A DNA stretch of 64,000 bases from positions 23,045 to 87,044 of the forward strand of contig NZ_AQWL01000006.1 of the NCBI RefSeq assembly GCF_000376425.1, read 5' to 3'. This document shows positions 19,461 through 31,373 of this stretch, one piece after another (positions within the stretch are counted from its first letter, which is position 1; each line of letters begins with the position of its first letter). This DNA comes from Thiobacillus denitrificans DSM 12475. Its GTDB lineage: Bacteria; Pseudomonadota; Gammaproteobacteria; Burkholderiales; Thiobacillaceae. Below the pieces are notes generated by a model. The model was not told the DNA's origin. It worked only from the letters and a program-made list of their open reading frames with translations, and did not search any database. The position numbers were made by a program, and so were the translations under genes.

Positions 19461-19616
19461 TGCGCGCCAGGTAATGCGTTCGACCCATGCGCTGCTGTCT
19501 ACGCAGCGGCATTTTCCGGCGCGGTCACGCGCTCTGCGACGATTTGCCACATTCCGCGGGCACGCCTGAAACAGGACAATCGAGTCCCTTTTGTTCTCTT
19601 TCGGAGCGTGATCGAC

Positions 19617-21914
19617 ATGCCGTGTCCTGTTTTTGCCCCCCGTCTGCTGCCGGCCCTGATTGCCGCCAGCCTGCTGCCGCTCGGCGCCAGCGCGAACGAA
19701 GCGCAATTGCCGACCGTCGAGGTGGTGGATACCCTGGAGAAGGCTGCACCGTTCGCCGCCGAGGTCAGGAATGCGCCGGCACTGCGTGCCACGACGAGCG
19801 ACACGGCGAGCCTGCTCAGGGACGTTCCGGGGGTGGGCCTGTACGGTGCCGGCGGGATCTCCAGCCTGCCCGCGATCCACGGGCTGGCGGACGACCGTCT
19901 GCGCATCAAGGTCGACGGCATGGACCTGATCTCGGCCTGCCCCAATCACATGAATCCGGCACTGTCCTACCTGGATCCGTCGCAGGTCGAATCGATCGGT
20001 GTCTACGCCGGCATCGCACCGGTCAGCGTCGGTGGCGACAGCATCGGCGGCGCGATCGTCGCCAAGACCGCGGATCCCGTGTTCGCCAAGCCGGGCGAGG
20101 GCAGCCTCGTCAAGGGCGAGGTCGGCACCTACTACCGCAGCAACGGCAAGGCCAAAGGCGCCAACGCGGCAGCCACCTACGCGACCGAGGGGTTCAACAT
20201 TTCCTATACCGGCGCCATCGCCCGATCGGACAACTACGACGCCGGCGGCAACTTCAAGGACAGACTCTTCGTCGCGGGAACGCCCGCCGGCTTCACCGGC
20301 CGCCCGGGGCACACCCTGCCGGCCGACGAAGTCGGTTCGACCGCGTACGACACGCGCAACCACACGCTGGGCCTGGCGTTCCGCGGCGGCAGCCATCTCT
20401 TCGAGGCAAAATTCGGCTACCAGGACATGCCCGAGCAACTGTGGCCAAACCAGCGCATGGACCTGCTCGCCAACGAGCAGAAGCGCGTCAACCTGCGCTA
20501 CGCCGGCGACCTCGCCTGGGGCAAACTGGAGGCGCGCGTCTACCATGAGGACGTCGAGCACTTCATGGACTTCGGCGCCGACAAGAAATACTGGTATCAG
20601 GCAGGAAACCCCGCTTATCTCGGTGCTCCTTGTGCTGGCCCCAGCGCAACCTGCGCCACCGGCATGCCGATGAATACGGAGAGCACCAACACCGGGGTCG
20701 TCGTCAAGGCCGATATCGACCTGACGCAGCAGGACCTGCTGCGCGTCGGCACCGAATACCAGCGCTACCGGCTCGACGACTGGTGGCCGGCCTCGGGCGC
20801 GGGCATGTGGCCCAACGCCTTCCTGAACGTCAACGACGGCGAGCGCGACCGCGCGGCGGTCTTCGGCGAATGGGAAAGGCAGCACAGCCCGCAGTGGATG
20901 ACGCTCGCCGGCGTGCGCTTCGAGCGGGTGAGCATGGATGCCGGGGAGGTGCATGGCTACAAGACGGCCGCGCCGGACTCGGGTAACCAGTTGCGAGACA
21001 GCGCCGCGTTCAACGCCGCGGATCGCTCGAAGACGGATAACAACTGGGACATGACCGTGTTGGCGCGCTACACGCCCGACGCCACTCGCGACATCGAGTT
21101 CGGCTTCGCCCACAAGACGCGTTCGCCCAACCTGCACGAGCGCTACGCCTGGTCGACCTGGCAGATGGCGGCGCTGATGGTCAACTGGGCCGGCGACGGC
21201 AACGGCTACATCGGCAACCTCGACCTCGACCCCGAGCAGGCCAATACCGTGTCCGCGACCTTCGACTGGCACGCGGCCGATCGCAGCTGGGAGCTCAAGG
21301 CCACGCCGTACTACACCCATGTCACCGACTACGTCGACGCGGTCCAGTGGAACGCCGCGGCGAACGCGCCGGGCACGACGCTGGTGACTGACCAGTTCAC
21401 GGTACTCAAGTTCGCCAACCAGTCGGCGCGGCTCTACGGCATCGACCTGTCGGGCAAGATGCCGCTGGCGAAGACCGACACGGGTGAGTATGGACTCAAG
21501 GGTCTCGTCAGCTACACCCGGGGCGAGAACCGTGATACCGGCGACAACCTCTACAACATCATGCCGCTCAACGCCAGGCTGACGCTGACGCACAAGCTGC
21601 GCGGCTGGGACAACGCCGCCGAAGTGGTGATGGTCGGCCGCAAGGATGACGTCTCCGCCATGCGCAACGAGATGGAAACCCCCGGCTACGCGCTCCTCAA
21701 CCTGCGCGGCAGCCATGCGTGGAAAAAACTGCGTGTCGATTTCGGCGTGGAGAACGTGTTCGACCGTCTTTACTACCATCCGCTCGGCGGCGCCTATATC
21801 GGCCAGGGCACGACGATGACCGCCAGCACCACGGCAATGACCGTGCCGCAATGGGGTACCCCGGTTCCAGGCATGGGCCGTTCGATCTACACTGCCTTGA
21901 ATTACCAGTTCTGA
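19617..21914 (+). CDS. oprC: TonB-dependent copper receptor, OprC/NosA-like
   Basis: This 765-residue outer membrane receptor has a signal peptide ending near ASA, a plug domain (residues about 45-155) and a 22-strand-type barrel ending in ALNYQF. The plug carries CPNHM, with C108 and M112 in a CxxxM arrangement, followed by NPALSYLDPSQVESI. H315-x-M317 (EHFMDF) supplies a second HxM pair. This CxxxM plus HxM combination is the copper-binding signature reported for Pseudomonas OprC. I chose the ATG at 19617, which has GGAG nine bases before it. It is followed after 13 bases by a PCuAC chaperone gene, supporting a role in copper import. Confidence 0.88.
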   Translation: MPCPVFAPRLLPALIAASLLPLGASANEAQLPTVEVVDTLEKAAPFAAEVRNAPALRATTSDTASLLRDVPGVGLYGAGGISSLPAIHGLADDRLRIKVDGMDLISACPNHMNPALSYLDPSQVESIGVYAGIAPVSVGGDSIGGAIVAKTADPVFAKPGEGSLVKGEVGTYYRSNGKAKGANAAATYATEGFNISYTGAIARSDNYDAGGNFKDRLFVAGTPAGFTGRPGHTLPADEVGSTAYDTRNHTLGLAFRGGSHLFEAKFGYQDMPEQLWPNQRMDLLANEQKRVNLRYAGDLAWGKLEARVYHEDVEHFMDFGADKKYWYQAGNPAYLGAPCAGPSATCATGMPMNTESTNTGVVVKADIDLTQQDLLRVGTEYQRYRLDDWWPASGAGMWPNAFLNVNDGERDRAAVFGEWERQHSPQWMTLAGVRFERVSMDAGEVHGYKTAAPDSGNQLRDSAAFNAADRSKTDNNWDMTVLARYTPDATRDIEFGFAHKTRSPNLHERYAWSTWQMAALMVNWAGDGNGYIGNLDLDPEQANTVSATFDWHAADRSWELKATPYYTHVTDYVDAVQWNAAANAPGTTLVTDQFTVLKFANQSARLYGIDLSGKMPLAKTDTGEYGLKGLVSYTRGENRDTGDNLYNIMPLNARLTLTHKLRGWDNAAEVVMVGRKDDVSAMRNEMETPGYALLNLRGSHAWKKLRVDFGVENVFDRLYYHPLGGAYIGQGTTMTASTTAMTVPQWGTPVPGMGRSIYTALNYQF

Positions 21915-21927
21915 AGAGGAGTTATCG

Positions 21928-22386
21928 ATGAAAGCGCTTGTTGCCGCCGTGCTCCTGGCCAGTGCCGCCGGCCTGCCTGCCTGGGCCGCCAATATCGGCG
22001 TGACCGACGCGTGGGTGCGCGCCACCATGCCGGGGCAGCCGGTCAGCGGCGCTTACATGCAGCTCCGGGCCGATGCCGATGCGCGTCTGATCGGCGCATC
22101 CAGCCAGGCGGTGCCGCGGGTGGAGGTGCACGAAATGAAAATGGACGGCGGCGTGATGCGCATGCGCGAAGTGAAGGCGATCGACCTGCCGCAAGGCAAG
22201 ACGGTTACGCTCAAGCCTGGCGGCTTTCACATCATGCTGATGAATCTGAAAAAGCCGATTGCAGCAGGTGATGTCATTCCGCTCACCCTGGTGGTCGAGT
22301 CCGGCGGCAAACGGCAGACGGTCGAGGTGAATGCGGTCGCACGCGCCGCCCGCATGGATGGTGGCGCGGCGCATCGGCATCACTGA
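21928..22386 (+). CDS. pcuC: Periplasmic copper chaperone PCu(A)C
   Basis: This 152-residue DUF461/PCu(A)C protein has a signal peptide (residues 1-21, cleavage after AWA). It carries the exact family copper motif H-x10-M-x21-H-x-M at H68, M79, H101 and M103, and a histidine-rich tail, HRHH. Such proteins deliver Cu(I) to cytochrome oxidase assembly factors or hold periplasmic copper. The gene is 13 bases downstream of the OprC-like receptor with RBS GAAGAGGAG, so the two form an import-and-handover operon. About 106 bases then separate it from the convergent HvfC-type gene. Confidence 0.93.
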   Translation: MKALVAAVLLASAAGLPAWAANIGVTDAWVRATMPGQPVSGAYMQLRADADARLIGASSQAVPRVEVHEMKMDGGVMRMREVKAIDLPQGKTVTLKPGGFHIMLMNLKKPIAAGDVIPLTLVVESGGKRQTVEVNAVARAARMDGGAAHRHH

Positions 22387-22492
22387 GGCAGCGCGGTGCG
22401 TGTGGTGCCTGCGGCGGCGCAGGCGGTTCGGTCTGAAGCCCGGAACGCCGCCTTTTGATCCTCAATACGCATCGCGCACGCGGCATGCCGGG

Positions 22493-23254
22493 TCAGGCCA
22501 CGCAGGTTCCCGCAATGACACCGCGTGCGCGCAGGTCCTCCAATAATGCTGTGCCGGCCTGCAGGATGAGCGCAGGGTCGGGATGGCGGCTTTCCGCGGC
22601 GAGGCCTGCCAGCGCGGCACGCCCGTTCAGCGTGCCGCGCTCCAGCAGGGTCAGCAGGCGTGCGGTGAATGCGTTGATTTCGCTGAACTGCACCCGGTCG
22701 GCTGCGTCGCGGAACACCAGCAGCCAGGTTTCGGCAGGCTGAATCTTGCGGCGCGGAGCGATCCGGTGCACGGGCCAGTCGTAGCGCAGGTTGGCCAGCA
22801 CCGGATTCAGCACGGGGACGTCGTCGAGCAGATCGCCCTGCGCATCGACACCGCAGGCGATGCTGCGATTCGATACCGACAGCACCAGTTCGATCCATTC
22901 GTAATGGGCCAGCGCCAGGGTGAAAGGCGGATAGCCTTGCGCCGGGGCCCATTCGTTCTGCAGGAACTGCACAAACTCGTCCGGGATCTGGCGAAAGTAG
23001 GGCGTGCGGCTGCGGTGCGTGCTGAAGAAGACGCGCACCAGCCGGGACCATTTGCGGGCGCCGAGCACCTGCCGCAGCACCGGAAAGCAGGAAAGCAGAA
23101 AGCTCTCGACGTTGTTGAACAGGATTGCGTTGTAAACCTTCATGCGCCGCGCCGCGACGCCGGCCGGACGCGGATGTGCCTGCGGGTCGCGGATGTGCGC
23201 GGCGAAGGCGAGCTGATAGCGCTGGAATTCAGGAAGCGCGGACGGCTCGCTCAT
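22493..23254 (-). CDS. HvfC/BufC-type DUF2063 partner of an MNIO RiPP enzyme
   Basis: This 253-residue protein begins with the DUF2063 putative DNA-binding domain. The segments [15 protein letters not shown] and [24 protein letters not shown] are typical. A C-terminal partner domain covers about residues 140-250. Proteins of this family bind the leader of RiPP precursors and assist the DUF692 enzyme encoded next to them. The start overlaps the end of the MNIO gene by 26 bases, indicating coupled translation. No DoxX (HvfD) gene follows, unlike many such operons. The assignment rests on family pattern and operon order. Confidence 0.85.
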
Positions 23255-24080
23255 GGGCTTGGTGCGCGGCCTGGATGCGGGCGATGCGTTCGACCTCGCG
23301 CGTCAGTTCGGCCAGCGGCGGAATGTTGAAGTCGCGTTCCAGCAGCGTGGGGGCGACGCCGTGGATGCGGTAGGTTTCATCGAGCAGCGCCCATACCGGG
23401 TCGATCACGGCGGCGCCGTGGGTGTCGATCAGCAGATCGTCCGCTTCCCGGTAATGTCCCGCCATGTGCATGTAGACGATCCGTCCGGTGGGCAGGGTGC
23501 GGATGAATTCGACCGGGTCGTAGCGGTGGTTGACGCTGTTGACATAGACGTTGTTGACGTCCAGATGCAGGTCGCAGTCGGCTTCGAGCAGCACCGCGCG
23601 GATGAAGTCCGCCTCGTCCATGTCGGCGATCGGCGCGGCAACGTAGAACGACGCGTTCTCGATGGCGATGCGGCGTTCCAGGATGTCCTGCGCGCGGCGG
23701 ATGCGCGCGGCGACGTATTTCACCGCCTCCTCCGTGAAGGGGATCGGCAGCAGATCGTACAGGTGCCCGTCGTCCGAGCAGTACGACAGGTGTTCGGTAT
23801 ACAGCTGGATGCCGTGCGTATCCATGAATTGCCGCGTTTTATGCAGCAGCAGCTCGTCGAGCGGGGTCGGGCCGCCGAGCGACAGCGACAGGCCGTGACA
23901 GACGAACGGATAGCGTTCGGTAAAACAGCGCAAGTCGCGGCCATGCGCGCCACCCAGGTCGATCCAGTTCTCCGGAGCGAGTTCGAAGAAATCGATGGCA
24001 GCGGGGACCTGGATTTTCAGCGCGGCAATGAGCTCGCGCCGGAAGCCCAGCCCCGCGCCGGCAAGGCGCAGGGAGTTCAC
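23229..24080 (-). CDS. MNIO-family (DUF692) RiPP-modifying iron enzyme, HvfB/BufB-like
   Basis: This 283-residue TIM-barrel protein belongs to the multinuclear non-heme iron oxidative enzymes related to MbnB and HvfB. Likely metal ligands are visible along the chain: H in [11 protein letters not shown] in TEHLSYC, E in IENASFY, D in [12 protein letters not shown] in MHMAGH, D in DTHG, and E in LLERDFNIP. Enzymes of this kind convert cysteines of precursor peptides to copper-binding groups such as oxazolone/thioamide. The precursor gene lies 13 bases upstream and the partner gene overlaps downstream. The chemistry is inferred from family and motif. Confidence 0.9.
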
Positions 24081-24093
24081 GGCAGGCCAGTGA

Positions 24094-24519
24094 TTATTTC
24101 GTCATGGTGCCGCTCTTGCCCGCACCGCATTTGCCTTCCCCTGCCTTCATGCCGCCGCATTTGCCCTCCATCATCTTGGCCATTTCATCCTTGTCGATGA
24201 AGCCATCCTTGTTGGCATCCTTCATGTCGAACATGGCTTCATGCTGCTTGGTGAACTCTTCCCTGCTGACCTTGCCGTCCTGATTGGTATCGGCCATGCA
24301 GTTTTTGCCATCCTTGTCGGCTTTCATCATGGCGGCGCCGCACTTGCCCGCACCGCACTTGCCTTCACCCATTTTCCCGGCGTCAGCAAGCATGTAGCCC
24401 TTGTCCAGGGATTGCATGGCGAAAGGGTTCTCGGCTGCGGAGGCGATGGGCGCTGCGCCAAGGGCAGCAGCAAATGCGGAACCAATAGCGACGGAAATCA
24501 GGGGTTTTTTGCTGGACAT
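24094..24519 (-). CDS. EF-hand RiPP precursor with EGKCG motifs (HvfA/bufferin-like)
   Basis: This 141-residue protein has a signal peptide (residues 1-28, cleavage after ASA). Its middle carries two EF-hand loops, D77-E88 ([12 protein letters not shown]) and D101-E112 ([12 protein letters not shown]). On both sides are EGKCG-type motifs. C55 and C60 lie in [11 protein letters not shown], and C121 and C131 in [16 protein letters not shown] last repeat is degenerate, AGKSG. C74 lies just before the first EF-hand. EGKCG cysteines are the sites modified by HvfB-type enzymes. I chose the ATG at 24519 (MSSKKPL) because it starts the signal peptide after AGAGAGAA. It heads a three-gene operon next to copper uptake genes. 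Confidence 0.88.
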
Positions 24520-24939
24520 AATGTTCTCTCTAAATAACGGTTCGAATGGCTCAATAACAACACAATGCACCGGAAGCCCGGTGGTTTTTATTGCAGGAAA
24601 CCCATGAATCGGGTTTCTTTGGCAATCCTCTTTCGCTGCGCCGCCGGCACCGCGCTCCGGGCGGCCTCGCCTGCTGCCGTTTCATTCCGGAACAGGCGAA
24701 ACCTTCCCCGAACGGCGCGCGGTTCCGGCCGTAGCCTTGGCGGACGGTCGTTTCAGCCGGGCGGCCGGCAAACGGTAGTCGTTCGTCCATGACCGGCGAC
24801 GCAAGTTCCGTACTTCCCCGTACACCGGCGCCATTTTACGCCGCCCCGCCTTCAATGCGCCGGTGAATGTCCGTTCCCGGTCTGGCATTGCCTGCTGTGC
24901 GGGTATTCGGCAGACGCGCACGCAGCGGCAAGCCGGGCT

Positions 24940-24967
24940 CTTGAAATGGAGATGGAGCGCCCCAGAT
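24940..24967 (+). promoter_or_regulatory. Sigma-32 heat-shock promoter candidate for hsp20
   Basis: CTTGAAA at 24940-24946 and CCCCAGAT at 24960-24967 are separated by 13 bases. This closely matches the sigma-32 pattern CTTGAAA-N11-15-CCCCATnT, with one mismatch in the -10. It lies about 40 bases before the Hsp20 start. The rest of the gap 24520-25009 contains no gene I can support. Confidence 0.72.
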
Positions 24968-25009
24968 CGGTTTTAGCAGAGTGTGTTTGTCAACCCGAAG
25001 GAGGACACC

Positions 25010-25432
25010 ATGGCCCATATCACCCGTTATGACCCGTTTGAAGCAGCCGATCCGCTGGATACCCTGTTCCGCGGTTTTTTCCGTCCGGTGCAGCTGGACA
25101 GGGAGGCACCGCAAATTCGTCTGGACGTGAAAGAGGATGAGAAAAGTTATGCCGTTCATGCCGATATTCCGGGCGTGGCCAAGGATGACATCCAGGTCAC
25201 GATCGACGGCAACACCGTGGCGATCAGCGCCGAGGTGAAGAAAAACACCGAGCAGAAGGACGGTGAAAAAGTGCTGCGCCGCGAACGTTATTTCGGCCGC
25301 GTCGGTCGCAGCTTCGCGCTGGAACACGAGGTGGACGAAGCTGCCGCCACCGCCCGTTACCAGGACGGTGTGCTGCAACTGGTGCTGCCGAAGAAGGTCG
25401 CGACTGCGGCCAGGCGGCTGGCAGTGCAGTAA
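25010..25432 (+). CDS. Small heat shock protein, Hsp20/alpha-crystallin family
   Basis: This 140-residue chaperone has a short N-terminal arm (YDPFEAADPLDTLFRGFFRP). The alpha-crystallin domain, at about residues 38-130, includes IRLDVKEDEKSYAVHADIPGV and GVLQLVLPKK, the second being the family A-x-x-x-n-G-v-L type strand. It holds unfolding proteins as an oligomer without ATP. The ATG at 25010 has a near-perfect ribosome site, GAAGGAGGACACC. A sigma-32-like promoter lies just upstream and a strong terminator just after, so it is a single-gene heat-shock unit. Confidence 0.95.
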   Translation: MAHITRYDPFEAADPLDTLFRGFFRPVQLDREAPQIRLDVKEDEKSYAVHADIPGVAKDDIQVTIDGNTVAISAEVKKNTEQKDGEKVLRRERYFGRVGRSFALEHEVDEAAATARYQDGVLQLVLPKKVATAARRLAVQ

Positions 25433-29310: not shown

Positions 29311-30336
29311 TGTGATCTCTCAATAGGTTGTTCACTCGGGACTTACCCGGAGAATTGGGGCTGCGAAACCAAACCAATGACCCGGAGCCCCGAATGAACA
29401 GCCATAAAAATGCCCGATTAACGCCGCGCGGTCGAGCCCTGTTGGTCGAACGCATCCTGGAGCACGGCCTGCGTCCCGAAGAAGCCGCGCAGTCTGCGGG
29501 CGTGAGTGTGCGCACCGCCTACAAATGGCTGCGCCGTTTCCGCGAAGAAGGCGCGAATGGGCTCGTCGATCGCAGCTCTCGCCCGCATCACTGTCCGCAG
29601 GCGCTTCCCGAAGCCACTCAGGCAAGCATCGTCGCTGCGCGTACCGAACGCCAGACGTATCGCCAGATCAGCCAGAGCCTGAACGTCGGCCACAGCAGCG
29701 TCGGACGCGTGCTGGTTCGTCAAGGTTTGAACCGGCTCGCCAGCCTGGAGCCTGCGCCGCCGGTTCAGCGCTACGAACACGACGCGCCCGGCGAGATGCT
29801 GCACCTCGACATCAAGAAACTCGGGCGTTTCGAGCGCCCCGGCCACCGGGTGACGGCGGATCGGACGGTGCATTCGCGCGGCGCGGGCTGGGAGTACGTG
29901 CATATCGCCATCGACGACCATACGCGCCTCGCCACGGCCAGCGTGCTGCCGGACGAAACCGCCCGGAGCGCTTGCCGGGCCTTGCTGGACGCCGTCCGGT
30001 ATTACCGCCGTCTGGGCATCCGCTTTGTGCGGGTGCTGACCGACAACGGTGTGGCGTATCGCTCGCGCAAGTTCGGGCGGCTGTGCCGCCGTCTCGGCAT
30101 CCGGCACAAGTTCACGAAACCGTATACGCCGCGTACCAACGGCAAGGCGGAGCGCTTCATTCAGACGGCGTTGCGTGAGTGGGCGTATGCGCGTTGCTAC
30201 GAGTCCTCGGCCCAGCGAACGGAACAATTACCGGGATGGCTGCATCGCTACAACTGGCATCGACCCCACGCCAGTCTGGGATACTTGCCTCCCGTCAGCC
30301 GCTTGAATTCGCTGAATAACCTGGTGGGGTTACACA
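29311..30336 (+). mobile_element. IS481-family insertion sequence inside rpfC
   Basis: This 1026-bp element is bounded by imperfect inverted repeats. The left end is TGTGATCTCTCAATAGGTTG and the right end, read inwards, is TGTGTAACCCCACCAGGTTA. They share TGTG, then AGGTTRTTCA. It is flanked by the 6-bp duplication ACTACT and carries one transposase gene on the strand opposite to rpfC. Intact ends, intact duplication and intact host frame on both sides indicate a recent insertion. Family assignment is from the transposase; the exact IS name cannot be given without a database. Confidence 0.92.
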
Positions 30337-31373
30337 ACTACTTCGGGCCCCGACAGCTGCGGCATGTGCATGTCGATAATGGCCAGATGGTAAGTGTGAT
30401 CGCCGGATTCGAGCATGCTCAGGGCTTCCTCGCCGTCGTGCGCCAGATAAGCCTCGTGCCCGGCGTGCTCCAGGAGGCCGCGAATCACCCGCTGGTTGAC
30501 CGGATTGTCTTCCGCCACCAGGATGCGCAGCGGGGCTGTCTGCCCGGTCTGGGCCTGGAAGCGGTTGGCCAGCGATACCACGTTGTGCGGCATGTCATGG
30601 CTGACGGCCGCGTGAATGGCATTGAACAAAAGCGTCGTATTGACCGGCGTCCGCAGCACCGACGCGTAGCCGTCACGCATCAACTGCGTGTCGCGTGTCA
30701 GAGCCATGCCGGCATCGGACTCGATCAGGATGACCGGCAACGCAGCCAGGCCGGGATCGTCGCGCAGCAGGTGCAGGAAGGCGCCCGGGTCGCCCGGCAG
30801 CACACCGCGTTCCACCACCACCGCGCCCAGCGGTGTGCCGCCCGACAGGTAGGCGGACAATTCGGCGGCAAGCCGGGCGGTGTTGTCCACCGTCACGGTT
30901 TCGGCACCCCAGTTGCGGATCATCGTCTGGATGCGGGCGCTCAGTTCGCCGCCCGCCAGAATCGCCACCCGCATAGGCGTGTCGAATTGTTCCGTGGCTA
31001 CGACGGGCTGGGCGGCTTGCAATGCGAATGGCAGCTCGAACCAGAATGTCGTGCCTTCCCCTTCGCGGCTGTGCAGGCCGATGTGCCCATCCAGCGCTTC
31101 CACCAGCTGTTTGGCAATGGTGGTGCCCAGCCCGCTGCCGCCGAAGCGGCGGGTGACGGAGGGATCGGCCTGGGTAAAGCTGTCGAATATGCGTGCCTGC
31201 GCGGCTTCCGGAATGCCGATGCCGGTATCGACGATCTCGAAGCGCAGGCGTTGCGGGTGGCCTTGCCCGGCCGGGCGGATGTAGACGTCGACCCGGCCGT
31301 GTTCGGTGAACTTGATGGCATTGCCGATCAGGTTGATGAGGATCTGGCGCAGGTGGCGCGCATCGCCATGTAG
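29394..31373 (+). CDS. IS481-family transposase with read-through tail
   Basis: The transposase proper covers 29394-30336, about 314 residues. It has an N-terminal helix-turn-helix (LRPEEAAQSAGVSVRTAYKWLRRF) and an RNase-H-type DDE core, with first acidic residue in LHLDIKKLG, second in RVLTDNGVAY and third in NGKAERFIQTAL. The tail RYNWHRPHASLGYLPPVSRLN is classic for IS481. The gene has no stop codon before the right end of the element. The frame therefore continues about 345 codons antisense to rpfC and stops at 31373. That tail is not homologous sequence and is probably an accident of the insertion site. Confidence 0.85.
   Translation: MNSHKNARLTPRGRALLVERILEHGLRPEEAAQSAGVSVRTAYKWLRRFREEGANGLVDRSSRPHHCPQALPEATQASIVAARTERQTYRQISQSLNVGHSSVGRVLVRQGLNRLASLEPAPPVQRYEHDAPGEMLHLDIKKLGRFERPGHRVTADRTVHSRGAGWEYVHIAIDDHTRLATASVLPDETARSACRALLDAVRYYRRLGIRFVRVLTDNGVAYRSRKFGRLCRRLGIRHKFTKPYTPRTNGKAERFIQTALREWAYARCYESSAQRTEQLPGWLHRYNWHRPHASLGYLPPVSRLNSLNNLVGLHNYFGPRQLRHVHVDNGQMVSVIAGFEHAQGFLAVVRQISLVPGVLQEAANHPLVDRIVFRHQDAQRGCLPGLGLEAVGQRYHVVRHVMADGRVNGIEQKRRIDRRPQHRRVAVTHQLRVACQSHAGIGLDQDDRQRSQAGIVAQQVQEGARVARQHTAFHHHRAQRCAARQVGGQFGGKPGGVVHRHGFGTPVADHRLDAGAQFAARQNRHPHRRVELFRGYDGLGGLQCEWQLEPECRAFPFAAVQADVPIQRFHQLFGNGGAQPAAAEAAGDGGIGLGKAVEYACLRGFRNADAGIDDLEAQALRVALPGRADVDVDPAVFGELDGIADQVDEDLAQVARIAM

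Follow-up and report, generated by a model that had tools for sequence, protein, structure and literature searches.

About 2,000 precursors with EGKCG motifs have been described, and they are of two types; in the second, a short EGKCG domain is followed on its C-terminal side by a pair of EF-hand_5 domains (PMC12452194); as far as the available text of that paper goes, a role for the EF part is only suggested. The pair FonBC installs a 5-thiooxazole on KCG repeats, four hydrogens being lost per repeat, and the product binds copper (PMC13097082). EfhP (PA4107) of Pseudomonas aeruginosa has four EGKCG repeats (PMC11559002), is encoded beside DUF692 and DUF2063 genes (PMC4053335), is predicted to be periplasmic and binds Ca2+ with an affinity of 13.7 uM (PMC9132961), and it has been described as a Ca2+ sensor affecting iron uptake (PMC4053335; PMC9132961; PMC11559002). 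Here, we describe an operon of this kind, hvfABC, in a stretch of 64,000 nucleotides from Thiobacillus denitrificans DSM 12475 (contig NZ_AQWL01000006.1, positions 23,045 to 87,044), which is called the window below. By analogy with the characterised systems, hvfABC probably encodes a copper-binding thiooxazole captophorin of the published EF-hand type, which would act as a periplasmic Cu(I) buffer with a Ca2+-binding core.

The hvfABC operon and its precursor

The operon lies at 22493-24519 on the minus strand and consists of three genes in the order hvfA-hvfB-hvfC, hvfB starting 13 nt past the stop codon of hvfA and overlapping hvfC by 26 nt. The first gene, hvfA (24094..24519, ATG start), encodes a precursor of 141 amino acids. 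Its N-terminus, up to about residue 29 (24433..24519), is a probable Sec signal peptide, judged by eye from a KK n-region, a hydrophobic core and an AxA motif. It is followed by an NPF...L..GY..A segment (residues 31-45, 24385..24429), the candidate element recognised by HvfC, in which N31, P32, F33, L38, G41 and Y42 are invariant in all nine Thiobacillus precursors with an EF-hand pair (EF-type precursors); a similar segment is seen in precursors that lack the pair (EF-less precursors). Next come an N-terminal KCG arm (residues 52-61, 24337..24366) with C55 and C60, two canonical EF-hand loops, D77-E88 (24256..24291) and D101-E112 (24184..24219), and a C-terminal KCG arm (residues 118-137, 24109..24168) with C121 and C131 and then the degenerate motif AGKSG (S136), all on the minus strand. 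Both the EF-hand_5 model (PF13202; E 2.7e-11, 42.8 bits against a cut-off of 25.9) and the KCGExKCG_twice model (NF050137; 34.2 bits against 19.5) match hvfA in two stretches. Two EF-hand_5 domains are thus joined to EGKCG motifs, as in the EF-hand captophorin group (Buf_EGKCG|EF-hand_5), and they lie C-terminal to a short EGKCG domain, that with C55 and C60; in the window, C121 and C131 come after them in addition.

The closest relative of hvfA, in genome G030, has AGKCG where the window has AGKSG; in the degenerate motif, near relatives thus differ by a Cys/Ser exchange. Comparison of the two whole precursors gives 0.071 nonsynonymous (dN) and 0.254 synonymous (dS) substitutions per site, and that of the EF pair alone a dN of 0.051 and a dS of 0.118; purifying selection acts on hvfA. 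A contig of Thiobacillus sp. 65-1402 (L125) encodes residues 1-65 of hvfA at 95% identity. Searches of the window's genome for KCGExKCG motifs (E up to 0.001) and for MNIO enzymes gave one match each.

The second gene, hvfB (23229..24080, minus strand, GTG start), encodes the MNIO (DUF692) maturase. It matches PF05114 with 343.6 bits and passes the curated model NF003818 (430.2 bits against 360), and its nearest solved relative is 3bww (E 2.6e-76). HvfB contains the stretches GLGFRR and ERDFN, both conserved in 3bww, which are taken here to correspond to Arg15-Arg16 and Asp249-Phe250 of FonB, the residues of the Lys-Cys class of MNIOs (PMC13097082); the FonB numbering is matched to HvfB by motif, the alignment being with 3bww. 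Judged in this way, HvfB has both the Arg-Arg and the Asp-Phe pair of this class. The third gene, hvfC (22493..23254, minus strand), encodes the DUF2063 partner of the MNIO with a recognition element for ribosomally synthesized and post-translationally modified peptides (RRE-type, PME1); it passes the curated model NF050145 (283.9 bits against 142), and its nearest solved relative is 3dee (E 2.7e-18).

The three genes, both loops, the four KCG cysteines and the AGKSG motif are as a preliminary description of this locus had given them, and the family models and the specificity residues of HvfB lend good support to its assignment of a modified-peptide operon with DUF692 and DUF2063 partners. The EF-hand/KCG fusion is not new: such precursors are already contained in PMC12452194, and EfhP, a protein studied before, also has EGKCG repeats, with members of both gene families next to it; the precursor belongs to a published group and its novelty is low. 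Also as described, no DoxX gene is present at the locus, the single DoxX match of the genome being on another contig; this absence is not unusual, because the characterised fontiphorin cluster also has three genes only (PMC13097082).

EF-hand precursors next to HvfB

In all, 34 EF-type precursors next to HvfB were pooled from the loci examined. A scan for related loci, whose query was of the EF type and of which the best 80 of 201 loci were retained, is biased in its share of precursors that have KCG-type motifs before as well as after the EF pair; a class sample (369 genomes) is less biased. HvfB rows aligned over at least 200 residues were kept, which drops the split HvfB of G019; for the 34 and for the tree described below, rows of at least 50% identity were used. 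Rows with identical first 200 residues were merged. Motifs of the KCG type stand on both sides of the EF pair in 29 of the 34 precursors, and only before it in five. In the class sample, HvfB exceeds the cut-off in 117 genomes, and 115 of these, other than that of the window, were examined as 118 rows, G306 appearing twice (L203 and L334) and being counted once. EF-type precursors are present in seven of them and only EF-less ones in 79; by the motif rule 28 have none, the contig having ended for some, and the remaining one has one EF-less locus and one locus without a precursor. Six of the seven EF-type precursors are sandwiched between motifs, and that of G334 has them on the N-terminal side only.

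All 67 recognised loops have Glu at position 12, under a pattern that required Asp at position 1 and one of E, D and Q at position 12. When the EF-less precursors were scanned with a looser EF pattern, there was one extra match (L021), which reads as chance within a KCG array. EF-type precursors are present in Thiobacillus, Nitrosospira, Pseudoxanthomonas, Lysobacter, Luteimonas and Steroidobacter, as well as in a Xanthomonadaceae and a Moraxellaceae genome. Two Nitrosospira loci (L123 and L126) have two tandem EF-type precursors before hvfB; in the second of these there is only one RCG motif, and the part that follows the EF pair lacks cysteine. A limited search of the literature, in sources available in part, turned up no published precursor in which an EF pair is flanked by KCG motifs at either end. 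The sandwich was considered as a new class and rejected as such, since proteins of this kind are very probably included in the published chimaera group.

Within Thiobacillus, 26 distinct HvfB loci, 80-100% identical in HvfB to the window, comprise nine with an EF-type precursor (the window included), 16 with an EF-less one and one in which none was found. In G033, an EF-type and an EF-less precursor stand in tandem at one locus.

Probable copper buffering and its alternatives

To the gene order, family membership, motif positions and conserved neighbourhood presented here, characterised relatives add the chemistry, and from them we infer modification, copper binding and export of the hvfA product. 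The following outline can be proposed. HvfC would bind the unfolded precursor in the cytoplasm, where HvfB would convert the KCG cysteines C55, C60, C121 and C131 to 5-thiooxazoles, and the modified product would then be carried to the periplasm by Sec. There, Ca2+, which is scarce in the cytoplasm, would fold the EF pair, making it a compact core that carries two short arms with thiooxazoles. Organised by Ca2+ binding, the arms may bind Cu(I) and thereby act as a buffer for periplasmic copper, next to PcuC and an OprC-like receptor, the products of two neighbouring genes.

Does the EF pair serve copper binding, or is it the other way round? The product could be a calcium sensor first, whose EF pair reports external Ca2+, as proposed for EfhP, and whose modified cysteines would adjust it to copper, iron or redox state. 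EfhP, which shares the operon partners as well as the EGKCG repeats and the two EF hands, is described as a Ca2+ sensor with an effect on iron uptake. In addition, five Nitrosomonas loci (L132, L133, L141, L145 and L150) encode secreted-looking EF-pair proteins with His-rich arms and no KCG motif, which speaks for the sensor. The Thiobacillus EF-type profile matches these five with E values of 1.0e-22, 3.2e-23, 3.8e-22, 3.5e-20 and 2.4e-9, respectively, and no HvfB is encoded beside them in the examined flanking DNA; in four of the genomes an MNIO is encoded elsewhere, next to a KCG precursor of the EF-less kind (L260, L261, L262 and L264), and the fifth (G431) gave no MNIO match. The five proteins are possibly enzyme-free relatives of EF-hand captophorins, and a Nitrosospira protein (L127) is intermediate, with one RCG motif, then EF hands and a His-containing tail. 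Against a sensor, however, the orthologous locus is EF-less in 16 of the 26 Thiobacillus loci, its neighbours are copper genes and the available passages of the EfhP literature name no signalling partner. We regard the sensor explanation as possible but rather doubtful.

Other EF-bearing proteins also stand apart from the enzyme. No HvfB is encoded beside the sandwiched precursors of four genomes of the class sample (G140, G104, G245 and G393) and of L129 within 10, 10, 9.5, 3.4 and 7.3 kb, respectively; all five genomes do have an MNIO match in another place. Outside Pseudomonadota, two metagenome-assembled genomes, of Flavobacteriales (L164:5659-6198) and Caldithrix (L188:5812-6495), encode proteins with KCG repeats and EF hands and gave no MNIO match at all; their cysteines could be unmodified or the assemblies incomplete. 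EF homologues unlinked to DUF692 genes, which the preliminary description had named as evidence against its proposal, thus do occur, in the five Nitrosomonas loci, whose proteins lack KCG motifs, as well as in these seven cases, and the DUF692 linkage is not strict.

Another explanation makes the EF pair a passenger, a mobile spacer or solubility module with no specific role, so that only the KCG arms matter. It draws on the ease with which the pair comes and goes: an HvfB tree of 132 rows, with 52 of its 129 inner branches open, shows at least 13 changes in EF state, six of them among the 25 Thiobacillus rows, and the Thiobacillus HvfB proteins of both kinds are 80-94% identical to that of the window. 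A single clade of the 32 EF-type HvfB rows was rejected by the approximately unbiased (AU) test (p 4.8e-7, on a quick tree with long branches), and closely related enzymes thus pair with both kinds of precursor. Counting the spread of the EF pair as independent gains was also considered and rejected, since gain, loss and exchange of an old EF-type gene are indistinguishable here. On the other hand, the loop ligands remain canonical, the EF module recurs in several families and the spacing of cysteines to the EF pair is often fixed, all of which argue against a mere passenger, and we consider this explanation unlikely.

This spacing deserves a closer description. The last cysteine of the N-terminal arm lies exactly six residues before loop 1 in 23 of the 34 EF-type precursors next to HvfB, the first of the C-terminal arm exactly nine after loop 2 in 16, and both spacings are found in 11 (L204 was scored as 32 since its loop 1 falls outside the pattern; by eye it is 6). 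The residues between the cysteines and the loops differ between families, and the shared spacing may reflect common descent of the precursor. Among the nine Thiobacillus rows, the spacing of nine is kept in eight and that of six in only four. The precursors of the window and of G030 keep the nine but not the six, having extra residues before loop 1 and a cysteine at a spacing of three. In the window these residues (24292-24336) hold a fifth cysteine, C74, which the preliminary description does not list, and an ADKDGK stretch that resembles the start of a loop; they are partly common to G030 and may be a partial repeat of the loop start.

The outer helices of EF hands pack together, and methanobactin binds copper via two heterocycles. 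A calcium-templated clamp can accordingly be imagined, in which folding of the EF pair by Ca2+ in the periplasm would place the cysteines at -6 and +9 next to each other on the two packed outer helices, so that two thiooxazoles grip one Cu(I); its helix geometry is taken from general EF-hand architecture. The spacing is the basis of this idea and the lack of the six in the window and G030 its main weakness here, and we think it improbable that the product works in just this way. If it did, the affinity for copper would vary with Ca2+, and the Nitrosomonas proteins with their His-rich arms would represent this design in a form that needs no enzyme.

What surrounds the operon bears on a further explanation. 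Convergent with hvfC is pcuC (21928..22386, plus strand), which encodes a PCu(A)C periplasmic copper chaperone (PF04314, 133.2 bits), and upstream of it lies the gene for an OprC-like TonB-dependent receptor (19608..21914, plus strand). The preliminary description had the operon converge with oprC-pcuC; pcuC is confirmed, and the name oprC is less secure, as the receptor fails the TonB-copper model TIGR01778 (104.2 bits against 472.45), yet its best solved relative is OprC (6fok, E 1.4e-15). The copper site of OprC is named in an abstract as CxxxM-HxM; CPNHM of the receptor aligns with CPNRM of OprC, and an HFM is found further on in the receptor, outside the alignment. Among 26 wide Thiobacillus loci with a high-identity HvfB (L051-L077 without L070), 23 have a pcuC match next to hvfC and on the other strand; of the remaining three, L053 and L066 end at or near hvfB and L059 has none. 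ArgB is matched in 25 and a histidine kinase in 22, some contigs ending early, and the neighbourhood is common across Thiobacillus with or without EF hands. From this linkage, and from the convergence with pcuC and the receptor gene, one might suppose that the product is a shuttle for copper uptake, a scavenger rather than a buffer, passing copper to the PcuC and OprC-like side. The convergent orientation, however, means that there is no co-transcription, and the orientation and identity of the receptor vary between relatives; such a shuttle also seems unlikely. A lanmodulin-like product, with lanthanides or some other hard metal bound to the EF pair, is highly improbable, since the weak lanmodulin matches (NF053806, 19.7 bits against 135; 6mi5, E 0.00059) are far below the cut-off and of a size also reached by troponin C and other EF proteins, and the hvfA loops lack the proline at position 2 that is typical of lanmodulin.

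Other genes were noted nearby. Past the receptor gene come those for a histidine kinase and a response regulator of the Fis type. An HSP20-family gene (25010-25432) is divergent from hvfA across about 490 bases and has a match in 14 of the 26 wide loci. A long plus-strand frame (29328-31373) starts with helix-turn-helix and integrase-like transposase sequence, as read from its translation.

The copper link made by the preliminary description is upheld by the family models, the substrate-specificity residues of HvfB and the conserved pcuC neighbour, and copper buffering by an EF-hand captophorin is the reading that we prefer. Several observations weigh against it. The full-length HvfA equivalog model NF050188 is not passed (25.3 bits against 95), and hvfA is therefore filed under the EF-hand chimaera group rather than the HvfA equivalog. 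C74, in the context KNCMA and not in a KCG motif, is a lone cysteine outside the KCG scheme. The absence of the EF pair at 16 of the 26 Thiobacillus hvfB loci means that it is not needed for the pathway. A promoter scan of 21900-25100 gave one sigma-70-like match, with 0.7 expected by chance, and since it is no more than chance and lies inside hvfA, copper regulation has no sequence support here. Finally, L059 (G016) has none of the copper neighbours, nor ArgB, the histidine kinase or HSP20.

Comparison with known systems

In EF-hand captophorins, a single small secreted protein would combine Ca2+ binding with a modified ligand for copper. Such calcium-copper coupling in the hvfA product, hypothetical as it is, could be approached in Thiobacillus, a non-pathogen that offers a natural comparison: a mostly syntenic locus with HvfB enzymes 80-94% identical to that of the window, where the precursor has the EF pair in some strains and lacks it in others, and where one genome has the two kinds in tandem. 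What is added here to the published group is the sandwich, the exchange of precursors at one locus, the His-armed relatives and the cysteine-to-loop spacing.

The bufferins Buf1 and Buf2 (PMC12452194) are likewise modified peptides with MNIO and DUF2063 partners that serve in copper stress, but their precursor families differ from that of the window, whose HvfB is below the BufB cut-off (256.2 against 310 bits). Fontiphorin, oxazolin (HvfA) and gonophorin share with hvfABC the KCG repeats, the enzyme and partner families and the specificity residues; the term EF-hand occurs 0 times in the available text of the captophorin paper that describes them (PMC13097082). EfhP resembles the hvfA product in its pair of EF hands, its EGKCG repeats, a predicted periplasmic location and the DUF692 and DUF2063 genes alongside, a likeness drawn from published descriptions, whereas it has been studied as a Ca2+ sensor. 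Closest of all are the EF-type precursors of PMC12452194, with the same EGKCG motifs, two EF-hand_5 domains, MNIO and DUF2063 partners and, probably, Sec-type N-terminus; they are described with the EF hands C-terminal to the EGKCG domain, whereas in the window, as in most of the precursors examined here, KCG-type motifs are present on both sides.
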